A stretch of DNA of 38,272 bases, taken from NCBI GenBank assembly GCA_945872355.1, contig CAMBZU010000029.1:1-38272 (forward strand). Direction: 5' to 3'. This document shows, one piece after another, positions 14,413-28,692 of the stretch. The position numbers were made by a program, and so were the translations under genes. The DNA is from Chitinophaga pinensis. GTDB lineage: Bacteria; Bacteroidota; Bacteroidia; UBA4408. The notes beneath the pieces are model-generated. The model was not told where the DNA came from. It made no database searches and saw only the letters and a list, made by a program, of their open reading frames with translations. Every line of letters begins with the position of its first letter. The stretch's first letter is position 1.

Positions 14413-16746
14413 CTAATGCATAATTTCCGCTACATCATATTTTAAAAAAAGCTCATGGATAATTTTTGCGGTTTCAATTACTGCATCTTTCGGATGGTAC
14501 GCCGTATTGGAAATACCCGAAACTACCTTGGATATGTTGTGATCAACAGTTCCCTTTGCGCTCCAAGTAGCAGATGGGGCAACGGTTAAATAGGCCGAAA
14601 AATTGTGATGTTCCGACCCTGGTCTCTCGCCAATGATGTGCACAATACCATGACTTTTTAAAGATGATGCCTTTTGTCCAAACAACATTTCACCACAAGC
14701 ATATCCGGCACGCACACGACCATTTTTAATAACGATGTGTTGCGCACTTATTGAATAATTATCATCTTTAAGTTTACTTTTTAATCCACTCAAAAAAGAC
14801 AGTAGCTGTTCGTTATCCATTATTGCCCTTGCATTTAATCCATCAGAAATAATGATTTGTAGAGCTGGAGCCATTCCTTTCCAAGCGGTATTGATAGACT
14901 TGATGCTTTCCATTGAATGCGAACTTAATACTTCACCCGTTACAGGATGATAAATATAATCTTTTCTATCTTTAGAATTTGTAGTGATAGGAATTGCAGA
15001 AGGAATAAGCTTTATAAAAGAAGGGCTGAGTTCCGTCCACAAACTCACTTTGGCATCTTCGTAAAAGTGGCGTACTTTTTTGTCTAATGCAGGATTTAAA
15101 TCCCAATAATTTTCACCATAACCTACTGCTATTGATACCCCACGTTTTTCAACACGCGCAATGGCTTGTTTTCCTTCTTCACAAATTTCCGCCAAGGAGC
15201 GCTTGTCGTTTTTTGTTTGTCTGTATTTGTAATACACCCAAGTGGGGTCCCCAAAATGTTTGGTTGGCTTTCCATCTTCATCAATAATTTCTAATTTTTT
15301 AAAGAAATTCCACATCGCATCATTCACCTTATAGCCAAACTGCTCGCGAATCTTTACATGGTTGTTAAACGCGGTTGATAGGTAGCTAAGCATAGGATCA
15401 TTTTTTGTTGGTAAAGCCATCAAATACGCAGGGTTTGAAGGCATGATTTGTTCAATGCACCAATCTAAATCATCTAAGTTAATATCCATGTGAAGTGTAG
15501 AACAAATGTCTAATCCAATGGTCAATCCATGTAGTTTAGCCATTACTGTATCTTCCAAGCAACAGCGCACTAGCTGCTCTTTTGTTCTAAATACTTCAGG
15601 GCCTATAAATCCTGCAACATCATTTACGTGCACCCAAGAATTATTCCCACCCTTCAGTGCATTAATTCGTTGTTTTAACACCCTCAGAAAACCGTATTTT
15701 CTCGACTCATGAATGACCATATCAAACCCTTCGCCATGCCCATTGGTCATCTCAGATCCTTGGCCGGTTTCAGCGTAAAATCCAAATTGCCCATCTCTTT
15801 GAGAAGCATATTGCAACATCTTGTCAATGTATACATCATAGGTTTTGTTCGCATTTGCCGTGCCAGCAATACTTTGGAACCAAATACCGGTGGTTCCCGG
15901 ATTTTCTTTTTCAACCTGTGCTTGAATGTCGATATGCGAAAGCACACAATTTGGTATGGTTGCTTCTAATCCAAAACTTTGAATGATGTCATAAAGGCCA
16001 ATTTCAATTTTTGCCACAGATGATGCTTCGCTCGATACGGGGTTTGTTCCTAAAACAACATCTCCAACTGCATAAGACCAAGCATCAAAAACTTGCCAAA
16101 CAATGTCTTCAATATTATCTGTAGGAGAATTTGGTTGCACCCGGGCGCCCATATAGCCTTTACTTCCTATTTTACTATTAGGTAGCGGGTTAAACACTTT
16201 TTTACTAAGCAAAATAAGCTCTTCATTTGTCATTAATTTTACCAAAAAAGCGATGATGTCGCTACTTAGGCATGGCATAAGCTCTTTTATTTCAGCCTCA
16301 GATTTTGACAGTGTAAAATCTTTTAGTTCACTTAGTGTCCAGTTTTCAATTATTGAATTTTCTTGAACTGATTGCTGAATTAATAGGCTTATTTCATCTT
16401 CAAATACCAACTGTTTGTTTAGTTTTTGAATAACTGTATTCCCAAGTAATTCCCTTGCATGTATGCCAGATTGTTCATCATTAGCTGAAATACCCAATGA
16501 CTTATCACCTTCTTTGAACGCATTGGCCGCACCTAAAATTTGTCTGTATAAAGTGATGTCAAATTTTCCATTAATGCTATTGATGTAATTAAAAATATCC
16601 TGGTTGATGCTTGGTTTTTGAATAACAACGCCTTCTAGTGTAGTTACAATTGCTTCATCTTTTGGAATAAAAAAATCACATCCATTTAAGATTAAAACCG
16701 AAGCCCCAGCAAGGCCCGAAAGCTTTATAAATTCTTTTCTTTTCAT
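14413..16746 (-). CDS. Fused ethanolamine ammonia-lyase EutB-EutC with an export/lipoprotein signal
   Basis: A 777-residue fusion of the large and small subunits of ethanolamine ammonia-lyase, the adenosylcobalamin-dependent enzyme that turns ethanolamine into acetaldehyde and ammonia. EutB-like sequence spans about residues 60-500. The known substrate-binding positions are preserved: R202 and Q204 in GARVQPN, N235 in GTNPV, E326 in ETGQGS and D413 in GLDICST. EutC-like sequence covers roughly 560-770 (ISDGLNARA near 635, IGERPG near 705); the usual NCISNI-type segment reads HNISKVV here. Residues 1-30 are unexpected: MKRKEFIKLSGLAGASVLIL followed by NGC, a Tat-like (R-K) signal with a lipobox and cysteine at 23. 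Normal EutB is cytoplasmic. No EutA reactivase, transporter, aldehyde dehydrogenase or microcompartment genes are in the window. The fold assignment is firm; location and activity are inference. Confidence 0.85.
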   Translation of the reverse strand: MKRKEFIKLSGLAGASVLILNGCDFFIPKDEAIVTTLEGVVIQKPSINQDIFNYINSINGKFDITLYRQILGAANAFKEGDKSLGISANDEQSGIHARELLGNTVIQKLNKQLVFEDEISLLIQQSVQENSIIENWTLSELKDFTLSKSEAEIKELMPCLSSDIIAFLVKLMTNEELILLSKKVFNPLPNSKIGSKGYMGARVQPNSPTDNIEDIVWQVFDAWSYAVGDVVLGTNPVSSEASSVAKIEIGLYDIIQSFGLEATIPNCVLSHIDIQAQVEKENPGTTGIWFQSIAGTANANKTYDVYIDKMLQYASQRDGQFGFYAETGQGSEMTNGHGEGFDMVIHESRKYGFLRVLKQRINALKGGNNSWVHVNDVAGFIGPEVFRTKEQLVRCCLEDTVMAKLHGLTIGLDICSTLHMDINLDDLDWCIEQIMPSNPAYLMALPTKNDPMLSYLSTAFNNHVKIREQFGYKVNDAMWNFFKKLEIIDEDGKPTKHFGDPTWVYYKYRQTKNDKRSLAEICEEGKQAIARVEKRGVSIAVGYGENYWDLNPALDKKVRHFYEDAKVSLWTELSPSFIKLIPSAIPITTNSKDRKDYIYHPVTGEVLSSHSMESIKSINTAWKGMAPALQIIISDGLNARAIMDNEQLLSFLSGLKSKLKDDNYSISAQHIVIKNGRVRAGYACGEMLFGQKASSLKSHGIVHIIGERPGSEHHNFSAYLTVAPSATWSAKGTVDHNISKVVSGISNTAYHPKDAVIETAKIIHELFLKYDVAEIMH

Positions 16747-16823: not shown

Positions 16824-17855
16824 TCAAAATTCCCTTAGTAATCTTCCTGATTTTATTAAAGGATCTTTGAAACCATTTTCTCTTAATGCATACCAAAAGG
16901 TAACTGCGTTTATACTAAGTATCGGAATCCCTATTTTGGGCTCTAGCTTTTCGGTTAAAGCAATCATGCTCATATTGGTGCCGAGCTGAACAACCGCATC
17001 TAGTTTATTTTGCGGTAGCGCAATATATTTTAAAATAGCTTCTTCTTTTGCCGAATCAGGAATATGCGCAATATCGTTTAAATTGCTGCAAGCAAATCCA
17101 AAACTTGTAACAACTTCGTAGCCCATGTCTTCAAACATTTTTTTTGCGTTTTCATTGCCTTTCTCGTTGAATGGGGTGATGAGGCCTATCCTTTTGGCTT
17201 TGTATTTTTTTAGCGCAGCATCTGCGGCATCATGCCATGTGGCCCATGAATATGGAAATTGTGTTTCAATTTGACGCATCAAATTTTCAATTTCATCTAA
17301 ACCATAAATAATGTGTTCTAGGCTCATGCCCATTATTAGATACTCGGGCTGCGCGATCGCTGCGGTTTCAATAGCAGTTTTGAGTCCACCAATGAATTGA
17401 TATTTGTAGCTTTCCAAATCCGCTTCAGTCATCATGCGAACTTTTGGAGTGATAATATTTGTGGTGTGAAGACCAATGCCTTCTAAACTTTGCTGATTAT
17501 TGAAAATGATGCTCCAAAGCTCATGTTCCATACTGGTGTTTGAAGCAGGAATCAATAAACCGAATTTGCGCTTAAAGCTTTTTACATCATGAAATTGCTT
17601 AGTGCTATCGAGTTTAAAGCTTGTTAGTTGCTTCCCATTTAATAAAAAATTACTGGCAAGGATTGAATGATGGGAGGAAATGTTTACCTCTGGCAGTTTG
17701 ATGGTTTTATTAGAAAGGCCTCCAATGATTATTCTTGATTCATAGCTCATCTGATTCATGTTTTTTGCTGGAGAAATATGTTGTGATAATTTTTTAGATG
17801 ACTTACATCCTACTATTGCTAAGAGAAATATACTAATTATAATTTTGAAATTCAT
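16824..17855 (-). CDS. Lipoprotein of the maleate isomerase / arylmalonate decarboxylase superfamily
   Basis: A 343-residue protein with a clear lipoprotein signal (hydrophobic stretch, LAIVGC, cysteine at residue 17) followed by a linker and then, from about residue 98 (FGLLIPASNTSMEHEL), a domain of the Asp/Glu racemase superfamily closest to maleate isomerase and arylmalonate decarboxylase. Canonical enzymes use two cysteines. Here the first position lies in MGMSLEH (175-181) and the second in QLGTNMSM, with G292 where cysteine is expected. This MGMS/GTN pattern resembles a known cysteine-less branch of the family, so activity may differ. LSINAVTFWYALRENGF near residue 315 is characteristic. 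Related proteins are normally cytoplasmic. It lies 77 bases upstream of the EutBC fusion on the same strand, with no terminator between, so they are probably an operon. Confidence 0.8.
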   Translation of the reverse strand: MNFKIIISIFLLAIVGCKSSKKLSQHISPAKNMNQMSYESRIIIGGLSNKTIKLPEVNISSHHSILASNFLLNGKQLTSFKLDSTKQFHDVKSFKRKFGLLIPASNTSMEHELWSIIFNNQQSLEGIGLHTTNIITPKVRMMTEADLESYKYQFIGGLKTAIETAAIAQPEYLIMGMSLEHIIYGLDEIENLMRQIETQFPYSWATWHDAADAALKKYKAKRIGLITPFNEKGNENAKKMFEDMGYEVVTSFGFACSNLNDIAHIPDSAKEEAILKYIALPQNKLDAVVQLGTNMSMIALTEKLEPKIGIPILSINAVTFWYALRENGFKDPLIKSGRLLREF

Positions 17856-25166: not shown

Positions 25167-25886
25167 GTGAAGTTTTTAATTCCATTATTTTTAAGTTTCT
25201 TTTATTACTTGCAGGTTTCGGCGCAATCCGATACAGTGTCATTATTTCATAACAGTACAAGCGCAGCATCAAACAAAAGCACCAATTTGCATAAAAATGC
25301 AATTAATTGGAATCTATTTCAACTTACAAGAGGGGGAATTTTAGTTAATTATGAGCGCATTTTGGGCAATTCGGGCTTTGCAATTACTGCAGGAATTGGT
25401 GTAAGTGTTTTTGACCCCATTGGCCAGTTTTATGTCAAAAAATTTGCTTATTACTATAAGCCCGATAGCTATTATTCAAATGAAAGAGAAACCACTATAC
25501 GTGCGCTATATGATATTGGTGCTAAATATTATTTTGACAAGGAAATGGGTGGAAGTTATTTAGGCACAGGATTTACTTCCATTGCTAATACCGTAGGTTT
25601 ATCAATAAATAACTACGATGCAAATTCCGCATTAATTAATTCAAGTAAGTATCAATTAGATTATCGAAGCAATGAAATTAAATTTCTCATTGGTTTTGAA
25701 AATGAAAACGATAATCAATTTTATAATGATTTTAATTTTGGATTTGGTTACAGGATGATAAATTACGAAAATTTGGTTTTTACCAATACAACTAATCCGC
25801 TACAACCGATCGAAGTGAGTAAAGTGAATAAAACAAATCAAACCCCTTGGCTTTTTATGTCGTGGAAAGTGGGGCTAAGATTTTAA
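25167..25886 (+). CDS. Barrel-like outer-membrane protein, paralogue 1
   Basis: A 239-residue exported protein, first of four tandem paralogues. Signal peptide to SAQ, then the shared motif SDTVSLF, the family motif TRGGILVNYERIL near residue 56, IGQFYVKK near 84, YDIGAKYYFDKEMGGSYLGTGF near 112, YRSNEIKFLIGF near 165 and the C-terminus PWLFMSWKVGLRF. The alternating aromatic strands and terminal phenylalanine suggest an 8- to 10-strand outer-membrane beta-barrel, by inference. It starts at GTG, 6 bases after the protease stop. I know no named family for it. Confidence 0.75.
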   Translation: MKFLIPLFLSFFYYLQVSAQSDTVSLFHNSTSAASNKSTNLHKNAINWNLFQLTRGGILVNYERILGNSGFAITAGIGVSVFDPIGQFYVKKFAYYYKPDSYYSNERETTIRALYDIGAKYYFDKEMGGSYLGTGFTSIANTVGLSINNYDANSALINSSKYQLDYRSNEIKFLIGFENENDNQFYNDFNFGFGYRMINYENLVFTNTTNPLQPIEVSKVNKTNQTPWLFMSWKVGLRF

Positions 25887-25896
25887 TACATAAACA

Positions 25897-26625
25897 ATGA
25901 TCAAAAATTTATTTTTTATTTTATCTTTTATTTGTTTGGCTCAAAAAGGGCTGGCACAAAGCGATTCATTAGATGTGTTTAGAACACCATCAAAAAACAA
26001 AAGCAATAATAGTGCATCAGGTGCTATGGGCAATAATTCATTGTCTATTAGTCTTGCTCATTTAGGCAGAGGTGGCACTATGCTTACCTATGAACGTTTT
26101 ATTAATAACACTCCATTTGCAGTTTTTGCAGGATTGGGCTTCAATAAAATTGATCTTATAGGGCAATTTTCATTTGACAATGAAGGTTTTTATTATGAAA
26201 ATGATTATAACGATAATAACACTGCTGAATTATGTAAAATGATAGATTTTGGTGTAAAGTATTTGCCCGAGAAAGAGTTAGGCGGCGGTTATTTTGGATT
26301 AGCATATTCTTTTTATGAGAATATTATTACCCAAAAAGTGAACACAAGGTATGAATTAATAAACAGTACAAGTTCTTATAAACTCAACTATAATAGTAAA
26401 GAATTTAAAGTAATCTATGGTTCAGTTAATGATGTAGATAATAGGTTTTATAGTGATTTTTATATAGGCACTGGTTTTAGATTATTGGAGTATGATCAAC
26501 TAGATTTTAAAGAAACAGGTTCTTCAAGTCCCAAATATGATAGAGCGCTCGCAATTATTAAAGAAACAAAAAGTGCAACTAAACTATGGCTTTTTATAGG
26601 TTGGAAAATTGGGGTTAGATTTTAG
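25897..26625 (+). CDS. Barrel-like outer-membrane protein, paralogue 2
   Basis: A 242-residue paralogue of the preceding gene, 10 bases downstream. Signal peptide to LAQ, then SDSLDVFR, GRGGTMLTYERFI near residue 57, IGQFSFDNEGFYYEN near 87, DFGVKYLPEKELGGGYFGLAY near 115, YNSKEFKVIYG near 168 and LWLFIGWKIGVRF at the end. The same order of motifs as paralogue 1 shows gene duplication, but the proteins have diverged strongly, so the duplications are old. Confidence 0.75.
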   Translation: MIKNLFFILSFICLAQKGLAQSDSLDVFRTPSKNKSNNSASGAMGNNSLSISLAHLGRGGTMLTYERFINNTPFAVFAGLGFNKIDLIGQFSFDNEGFYYENDYNDNNTAELCKMIDFGVKYLPEKELGGGYFGLAYSFYENIITQKVNTRYELINSTSSYKLNYNSKEFKVIYGSVNDVDNRFYSDFYIGTGFRLLEYDQLDFKETGSSSPKYDRALAIIKETKSATKLWLFIGWKIGVRF

Positions 26626-26635
26626 TAAATAATCA

Positions 26636-27385
26636 ATGTCGAAATGTTCAATTTTATTGATTCTAAGTTATTTTGTTGTTGCTCTGGGCTATGCTCAAAC
26701 GGATAGTATAAGTGTTTTTAGAGTCAATCCTAATGCAAAAAAACAAAATGGGTCATCAAGTATTGGCCTCCGCAACGCTATTGCAATAAATATTAATAGT
26801 ATAGCCAGAGGCGGCGCCATGCTTAGCTATGAAAGATTGTTTAAAAGTCCTGAAATTTCTATTTATGCTGGCTATGGCCTAAGTTTTATCGATTTAGTGG
26901 GCCAATACTCATTTGATGAGGAACTTGAATTTTATCCACAGGACGACTATTCAACAAAATCAATGGTAAGCCCAGGTAGAATCATTGACGTTGGTTTAAA
27001 GTTTTGGGATGCTACCCTTTGGGATGACAGTTACATTGGTTTAGGATACTCGTATTATTCAAACAATCTAAAAAGAAAAATCGATAGTCAATACAATATA
27101 GCTCAAGATGGCCCCCGTTCTTATAATTTAGATTACATAAGTAATGAAATTAAACTTGTGCTAGGTTTTACAAATAGCGATACAAGAAGACTTTATGTTG
27201 ATGCTGCTGGTGGCTTAGGTCTCAGATTTGTAAATTATCAAAAATTAATAATTACAGACGACCCCTTTGCTGCTTTTAATATACTTACTGTAACAGCTAA
27301 TCGAGAAATTCAAGTTGACAAATCCAGTGAGTTTAAAATAAAATTTTGGGCCTTTCTAGGATTAAAAATAGGCCTAAGAATCTAA
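26636..27385 (+). CDS. Barrel-like outer-membrane protein, paralogue 3
   Basis: A 249-residue paralogue, 10 bases after paralogue 2. Signal peptide to YAQ, then TDSISVFR, ARGGAMLSYERLF near residue 61, VGQYSFDEELEFYP near 89, DVGLKFWDATLWDDSYIGLGY near 119, YISNEIKLVLGF near 173 and FWAFLGLKIGLRI at the end. The final residue is isoleucine where the other copies have phenylalanine. It ends 11 bases before the fourth, disrupted copy. Confidence 0.75.
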   Translation: MSKCSILLILSYFVVALGYAQTDSISVFRVNPNAKKQNGSSSIGLRNAIAININSIARGGAMLSYERLFKSPEISIYAGYGLSFIDLVGQYSFDEELEFYPQDDYSTKSMVSPGRIIDVGLKFWDATLWDDSYIGLGYSYYSNNLKRKIDSQYNIAQDGPRSYNLDYISNEIKLVLGFTNSDTRRLYVDAAGGLGLRFVNYQKLIITDDPFAAFNILTVTANREIQVDKSSEFKIKFWAFLGLKIGLRI

Positions 27386-28167
27386 ATGAACTATTTATGA
27401 AACAACTATTTTGTATTTTTTCGCTCTGCTTTTGTATACATCTTCATGTCAATGCACAATCAGATTCTCTTTCGTTATTTAGAGAAAATAATGCATCAAA
27501 TTTTGATAAAACAGGGAATAAAAAAAATTTCTTTTTTTTAAATCTAACCACGCTTTTTAGAGGCGGTTTTGCTCTTGGTTACGAAAAGTATTTTGGGTTC
27601 TCAGGATTGGCTGCTTATGCACATATAGGTTATACTGCAAGAGATTTTACAGGGCAATATTAAATTAAGGATGGTAATTCTATCTTCTTTAATTATGAAA
27701 CATACAAAGGAGGAAAAAAACCAGGCTATATGTATGAACTAGGTACAAAATATTATTTTGAAAAAGTACCAAGTGGAAACTATATTGCTGCAGCCTTTTC
27801 AACTATAATAAATACAAGGGTTAGAGATTTAACGGATGAATTTATACCTGTTAATATAAACAGTAAATCTTATTTAGTTAATTACTCAAGTAAGGAAATA
27901 AAATTAATGTTGGGAAAAGCGAGTGATGCCTCAGAAAAATTTTATACTGATTTTGCTTTTGGTGGTGGTTTGCGATTCCTAAAATATGATGATGTAAAGT
28001 TTACTACACAGGACGGACCTGCACTAGAAATAAACCGTTCCCATGCTATGAGAGGGTGGCGCTTCCAAACGAAATTTCCAAATGAAATAGTGCATTTTCT
28101 GCCAATCGAAATGCAACATACAAACTTAAAAACCGCCACTTTTACTTACCATGTTTTATGCCCAGTA

Positions 28168-28692
28168 TTAAATTGATTTGCTATATAATTCCTTCCATCG
28201 TAAGTCAGTTTGTTGGTCAACCCATTGTTTTGATTTGAACCCTCCGAATCTTAAACTTTGATTTAGTAGTTTCCCAACTCCAATTGAATAAATAATTCTA
28301 TTGTCTTTTTCTAATTCTATATAAATTCCATCTGAAACTTTGAATACACCATTCATACCTTTAATAGTTAAACCGTCGATTGAATTACTTGGTATTTGAC
28401 CAGGCAATATTTCTTTAACACCACAATTTTCATCTAAAACAAATATTTTACTATTTGAGAGATTTCGAATTATCCTACCTCCCTTTTTGAATTCTAATAA
28501 TTGCAGAAAGGATGCAATGCCGATACCTACTCCAATGCTTTTGTTTATTTGATTATTTGAAATTGATAGTCCCAAGGCAGCTATTAACCCAAGAGACATC
28601 CTTGTGTAAGGATCTATAGAATGTTCTAAAGATTTTAATCCCTTGAATGATATCAATCCTGAAGCTGTGGTAATTAAATTTTTGTTTTTCAT
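28168..28692 (-). CDS. Unknown protein inside the inserted segment
   Basis: A 174-residue protein. Residues about 30-65 are hydrophobic (MSLGLIAALGLSIS and GVGIGIASFLQLLEF), perhaps one or two membrane segments. The remainder is soluble, with GGRIIRNLSNSKIFVLDENC near residue 71 and a basic, tryptophan-containing C-terminus (KQWVDQQTDLRWKEL). No family recognised and no catalytic motif seen. It lies wholly within the insertion in paralogue 4, on the opposite strand, so it is probably cargo of that insertion. A 15-base palindrome lies 53 bases upstream of its start. Confidence 0.55.
   Translation of the reverse strand: MKNKNLITTASGLISFKGLKSLEHSIDPYTRMSLGLIAALGLSISNNQINKSIGVGIGIASFLQLLEFKKGGRIIRNLSNSKIFVLDENCGVKEILPGQIPSNSIDGLTIKGMNGVFKVSDGIYIELEKDNRIIYSIGVGKLLNQSLRFGGFKSKQWVDQQTDLRWKELYSKSI

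Follow-up and report, generated by a model that had tools for sequence, protein, structure and literature searches.

The locus described here raises the question of whether an adenosylcobalamin (AdoCbl)-dependent ethanolamine ammonia-lyase (EAL) can work outside the cytoplasm. It lies in a 38,272-nucleotide stretch of the Chitinophaga pinensis contig CAMBZU010000029.1 (hereafter the window, meaning the whole stretch that was analysed) and encodes both EAL subunits, EutB and EutC, in one chain behind a predicted lipoprotein signal. AdoCbl is a light-sensitive cofactor derived from ATP, and the enzymes that use it become inactivated and normally need an ATP-dependent reactivase. We know of no AdoCbl-dependent radical enzyme that has been established as extracytoplasmic. 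In this study, we report that the window protein represents a conserved exported form of a known enzyme, present in several phyla and undescribed as such within the literature searched; no paper describing an exported EAL was found there, subscription papers being mostly outside its coverage.

With a probability of about 0.72, the window protein is an active, extracytoplasmic, AdoCbl-dependent EAL composed of a single EutB-EutC chain. The fusion, export signals of two unrelated types, selection, the EAL fold, and the presence of TatC and an adenosyltransferase can be read from sequence; we infer the periplasmic location, AdoCbl as cofactor and ethanolamine as substrate, and also that the enzyme would be active, loaded with its cofactor and reactivated outside the cytoplasm. 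AdoCbl chemistry in that compartment is the best-supported reading rather than a proven one. If it is correct, the enzyme must obtain, protect and renew AdoCbl without ATP, and ethanolamine is deaminated without being imported, with acetaldehyde released outside the cytoplasm.

The fused gene of the window

The open reading frame starts with ATG and is organised as follows.

14413..16746, minus strand: fused exported ethanolamine ammonia-lyase gene, 777 aa (stop counted), with Pfam and NCBIfam matches
16678..16746, minus strand: putative Tat-type lipoprotein signal, residues 1-23, with RKEFIK, a hydrophobic stretch, an LNGC lipobox and Cys23; kept in relatives, low dN
16549..16677, minus strand: start of the mature chain, residues 24-66, of which 24-50 are a fast-evolving linker
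15259..16548, minus strand: EutB large-subunit catalytic domain, residues 67-496, from Pfam, invariant residues and fold match
15136..15258, minus strand: inter-domain connection, residues 497-537, the gap between both Pfam matches
14446..15135, minus strand: EutC small-subunit domain, residues 538-767, from Pfam, kept DGL, GR and GERPG residues, and fold match

The original prediction of EutB and EutC in a single 777-residue chain was confirmed by the reading frame and by Pfam, in which EutB (PF06751) scored 435 bits over residues 67-496 and EutC (PF05985) 105.5 bits over residues 538-767, both above their gathering scores. Among the NCBIfam models, the EutB subfamily model was passed and the EutC equivalog model matched with a score below its cut-off. 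The curated family models used say only EutB and EutC, and so hide the location of the protein. The first 23 residues, MKRKEFIKLSGLAGASVLILNGC, carry the marks of a predicted Tat lipoprotein, namely a twin-arginine-like motif (RKEFIK), a moderately hydrophobic h-region and a lipobox Cys at residue 23. TatC is encoded in the same genome (G000; C1, 24459-25166). The window gene is the single EutB gene found by searching this 3.4 Mb genome, and its nearest relatives in the tree are from Flavobacteriaceae, which marks the genome as being of Bacteroidota type.

Distribution of the fused family

EutB was detected in 16 of 395 genomes of the class. Eleven of these have a canonical EutB (700-733 bits, ORF of about 460-490 aa) and five, including the window genome, a fused, divergent protein (428-444 bits, ORF 779-796). 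Scanning 84,980 species genomes yielded 142 confirmed relatives; the 80 loci retained come from Bacteroidota, Balneolota, Ignavibacteriota, Desulfobacterota, Planctomycetota, Myxococcota and Riflebacteria. Additional members came from surveys at the phylum level, of Desulfobacterota and of Planctomycetota, and from an order survey around locus L098. Both the signal and the fusion proved to be conserved in this large multi-phylum clade, and all 26 carrier genomes tested hold one EutB copy each. The exported family occurs in cultured genera such as Algoriphagus, Echinicola and Polaribacter; its width and these genera make the question of an extracytoplasmic EAL directly testable.

Export signals and selection

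All five fused proteins of the class survey have an N-terminal signal; three combine a lipobox with RKEF, RREEF or SRKSF, and RRDF occurs twice without a lipobox. Across the exported clade, an export signal was predicted in 103 of 103 members checked, 102 of them by the classifier. The sole miss, L124, gained a Sec-type signal once its start was set upstream (upstream sequence MRRAIGKLLTISIACFAIISMATYCGA). An R[RK]xF-type Tat motif precedes the hydrophobic stretch in 80 of the 103, the same rule firing in 54 of 1022 neighbouring ORFs; eight more have a weaker R-x version and the remainder are Sec-like. Overall, the signals are mostly of Tat type (lipoprotein or SPase I), with Sec signals in most Desulfobacterota. 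Sixteen further proteins (one being the L098 gene again) comprised 12 with Sec-like and three with Tat-like N-termini, and L176, which was ambiguous. Using the same classifier, no signal was found in 15 of 18 canonical EutB proteins, the other three being assigned to 'Sec/other', a class into which 41% of neighbouring ORFs fall as well under this crude rule; eight of eight signal-less fused proteins tested were likewise negative. TatC was present in 22 of 22 carrier genomes tested. Only two changes between Tat and Sec are needed on the tree, and judging from these N-termini export is retained while the route is switched.

In comparisons of the window gene with four close relatives, for which dS was mostly near saturation, dN was 0.11-0.23 for the signal, 0.12-0.14 for the EutB part, 0.22-0.27 for the EutC part and 0.25-0.66 for the linker (residues 24-50). 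The signal and the enzyme domains thus have similar dN, and selection therefore constrains both to a similar degree. The Tat-type R-K lipoprotein signal with Cys23 that had been proposed for the window protein is accordingly borne out at the level of sequence, conservation and low dN. A true start further downstream, which had been named as one way to refute that proposal, is contradicted by the relatives, which have the extension from residue 1, and by a dN that is lower in the signal than in the linker.

It is very unlikely that the protein is a cytoplasmic EAL whose N-terminal extension does not function in export. The characterised EALs known to us are all cytoplasmic or in microcompartments, and the Tat motif of the window protein is RK and not RR, which would suit that explanation. 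However, RR motifs occur among the relatives, as do Sec signals of unrelated sequence, a lipobox is present in about a third of exported-clade members, the signal is strongly constrained whereas the linker is not, and no such extension precedes the canonical-type fusions or the other fused lineages. Export of the fused EAL is strongly supported by these sequence comparisons.

Phylogeny of exported and signal-less fusions

In a first tree of 101 rows, the exported proteins formed one group (SH-aLRT 99) with the signal-less fused proteins outside it. In a larger tree, L120 and L178-L183, which are signal-less, remained outside the exported group. A single clean clade of exported proteins was not upheld, since the signal-less planctomycete proteins L144 and L147 fell inside it, in a tree where several branches are long and placements uncertain; one later loss of the signal in these two is possible from the sequences.

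The divergent fusions L120, L143, L152, L178-L183, L144 and L147 have the same architecture as the exported clade and are its nearest relatives, but differ in that no export signal was detected. Among them, L120 and L178-L183 make up a further divergent signal-less lineage scoring about 350-400 bits. A separate, canonical-type fusion (L110, L111 and L126, from the Desulfobacterota survey; ORF 705-706 aa) shares the single chain with EutB followed by EutC; unlike the exported family, it has no signal and groups with canonical EutB in the first tree. The EutB-EutC fusion itself is not new, given this canonical-type fusion and the one described for Pelobacter carbinolicus in the account of that organism (PMC3543383).

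Active site and fold

Ten substrate and active-site positions of EutB (R160, Q162, N193, S247, E287, V326, F329, D362, L402 and Y404, E. coli numbering) showed no variation among the 82 fused proteins compared, and M392 was kept in 80 of 82. The residues in the window protein are R202, Q204, N235, S292, E326, V377, F380, D413, L453 and Y455; of these, R202, Q204, N235, E326 and D413 had been aligned with the known EutB positions beforehand, and they do correspond to R160, Q162, N193, E287 and D362. As far as invariance and substitution rates can tell, purifying selection acts on the active site as well as on the signal. The EutC DGL, GR and GERPG residues are also kept in the fused proteins.

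AlphaFold2 modelling of the mature chain gave a pLDDT of 90.4 and a pTM of 0.90, with pLDDT below 50 at mature residues 1-13. The best PDB match, with a TM of 0.87 by target length, was 3abo_A, the large chain of an EAL structure that contains CN-Cbl and ethanolamine. The EutC half matched the small chains 5ysr_D (TM 0.73) and 3abo_D (TM 0.71), and diol dehydratase came next among the PDB matches, after the EAL chains. In the model, both halves adopt the EAL fold. The window protein shares with the canonical enzymes (E. coli, 3abo; Listeria EutB, 2qez) both domains, the fold and all ten active-site positions examined. It differs from them in that canonical EutB and EutC are two separate subunits without a signal peptide, in an identity of about 28% in the structural match, and at several EutC positions.

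The EutC differences are R136H, R141E and D211Y in 82 of 82 fused proteins and N261G in 81 of 82, at positions that are invariant in canonical proteins, and cobamide binding may differ as a result; no paper giving a cobalamin contact list for EutC was found in the literature search. In EutB, V327A, N367L and A369M occur in 82 of 82. Such replacements, often unanimous, of positions invariant in canonical enzymes, together with EutB scores of about 430-500 bits against about 700 for canonical proteins, could point to an exported AdoCbl enzyme of EAL fold acting on another substrate, be it a derivative of ethanolamine or a different vicinal amino alcohol. This is considered rather unlikely, as the ethanolamine-binding residues examined are identical, and the gene neighbourhoods described below also speak for ethanolamine.

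Gene clusters in Desulfobacterota

An aldehyde:ferredoxin oxidoreductase (AOR) gene was located within 8 kb of the exported EAL in 8 of 15 Desulfobacterota genomes, against 0.55 expected and a maximum of 6 in 200,000 random placements; as the genomes are related, independence is overstated. This arrangement fits B12-dependent acetaldehyde production and hence argues against a different substrate. In the order of L098, 8 of 8 Sec-type loci examined have, in this sequence, a porin-like gene, EutBC, a multi-TM protein (7 of 8), an ABC ATPase, Peripla_BP_2 and FecCD. Porin-like and BtuD/F/C-like flanking genes were found fully or partly in L115, L118 and L121, and in L187 a solute-binding protein precedes that array and MoxR and DUF58 continue it. 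The nearest NCBIfam models for the L115 ATPase and permease are corrinoid/BtuC models, matched below the equivalog cut-offs. None of the four signal-less fused loci checked (L195, L196, L199 and L201) has porin, BtuDFC or AOR neighbours. Both the AOR and the BtuDFC associations were seen in Desulfobacterota, in genomes related to one another, and not in Bacteroidota.

Directly downstream of the Sec-exported EAL, a conserved multi-pass membrane protein of about 260 aa is encoded (L187, 10725-11507; L115, 6622-7419), for which no Pfam match was found and, for the L115 copy, no NCBIfam match. A Bat-like array of MoxR ATPase, DUF58 and further genes lies downstream of the BtuDFC-like genes in the operon of the exported EAL (L187, 14424-17994; L203, 6424-12895).

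A similar arrangement is reported in the genome paper on Pelobacter carbinolicus, an organism able to grow on ethanolamine: eutBC is present twice, each copy being called 'an unusual fusion', with neighbours that include solute-binding, multi-transmembrane, corrinoid-related ABC transporter, VWFA, ATPase and AOR genes and, in that description, no eutA (PMC3543383). The fusion and the described gene content of Pcar_0491 and Pcar_0467 match the Sec-exported members, and by this content, rather than by their sequences, both would belong to the exported clade. The passages of that account on these genes note the fusion and, unlike the present analysis, do not mention export. A cluster of this kind in an ethanolamine-fermenting organism (PMC3543383) also argues against another substrate.

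The importer genes bear on a further explanation, that the protein is an EAL-derived, non-catalytic cobamide-binding lipoprotein, scavenging B12 in the manner of BtuG or BtuH. Surface lipoproteins that catch B12 are described in Bacteroidetes (PMC10404256, PMC8941943), and some members of the family do adjoin BtuDFC-like importers. Nevertheless, a protein that only binds would have no need of ten substrate and active-site positions without variation in 82 of 82 sequences, nor do AOR neighbours suit it, and this explanation is regarded as highly improbable.

Proposed mode of action

For the catalytic, exported EAL that is favoured here, the window protein would cross the inner membrane by means of its Tat signal and become lipidated at Cys23, which would tether it to a membrane, most likely facing the periplasm. 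The sequence after Cys23, DFFIPKDE, is unlike any Bacteroidetes surface-export signal known to us, so a periplasmic rather than a surface-exposed position is suggested. Ethanolamine from phosphatidylethanolamine breakdown would then be converted by the AdoCbl enzyme to acetaldehyde and ammonia outside the cytoplasm, and only these small products would enter the cell. In Tat-type members, the cofactor may be loaded before export. Sec translocates unfolded chains, and Sec-type members would therefore require AdoCbl loading in the periplasm.

Extended to the clade, we lean towards an AdoCbl radical enzyme that several phyla use outside the cytoplasm. Its Tat members might be exported with the cofactor already bound, and its Sec members would take up imported AdoCbl once in the periplasm. 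Desulfobacterota may have a dedicated porin and a corrinoid-type importer, and in that phylum only, the MoxR, DUF58 and VWA genes are a possible stand-in for the reactivase EutA.

Cofactor genes and genome context in Bacteroidota

A PduO-type adenosyltransferase was found in 25 of 26 carrier genomes, including that of the window. No convincing EutA was found in carriers, the hits being short, partial matches, mostly in frames of about 440 aa, and read as FtsA-like, and EutH was not found. Two Bacteroidota genomes with canonical EAL likewise lack a convincing EutA, so its absence is not specific to the exported enzyme; EutA and EutH, both missing in canonical-EAL Bacteroidota, were rejected as uninformative markers. 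No cobalamin riboswitch was detected near the loci tested. The flanking genes scanned around the window gene include no EutA, EutH or microcompartment genes, in agreement with the earlier remark that eut accessory genes are not nearby; all the earlier remarks that were checked proved correct.

The window gene has no conserved or informative neighbours. Conserved partners in Bacteroidota were sought and rejected, the gene being solitary, with neighbours that vary by genome and nothing in common beyond close relatives. A lipoprotein-type (MNFKIIISIFLLAIVGC) Amdase/Asp-Glu-racemase-like protein is encoded on the same strand 78 bp upstream of the EAL gene (16824-17855, minus strand); it was discarded as a partner, since 295 class genomes gave no close relative of it, only weak ones, and it is absent near other exported EALs. 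Elsewhere in the window (25167-27385 and 27730-28176, plus strand), three consecutive, similar signal-bearing proteins of about 240 aa and a shorter fourth are encoded, apparently as a result of tandem duplication.
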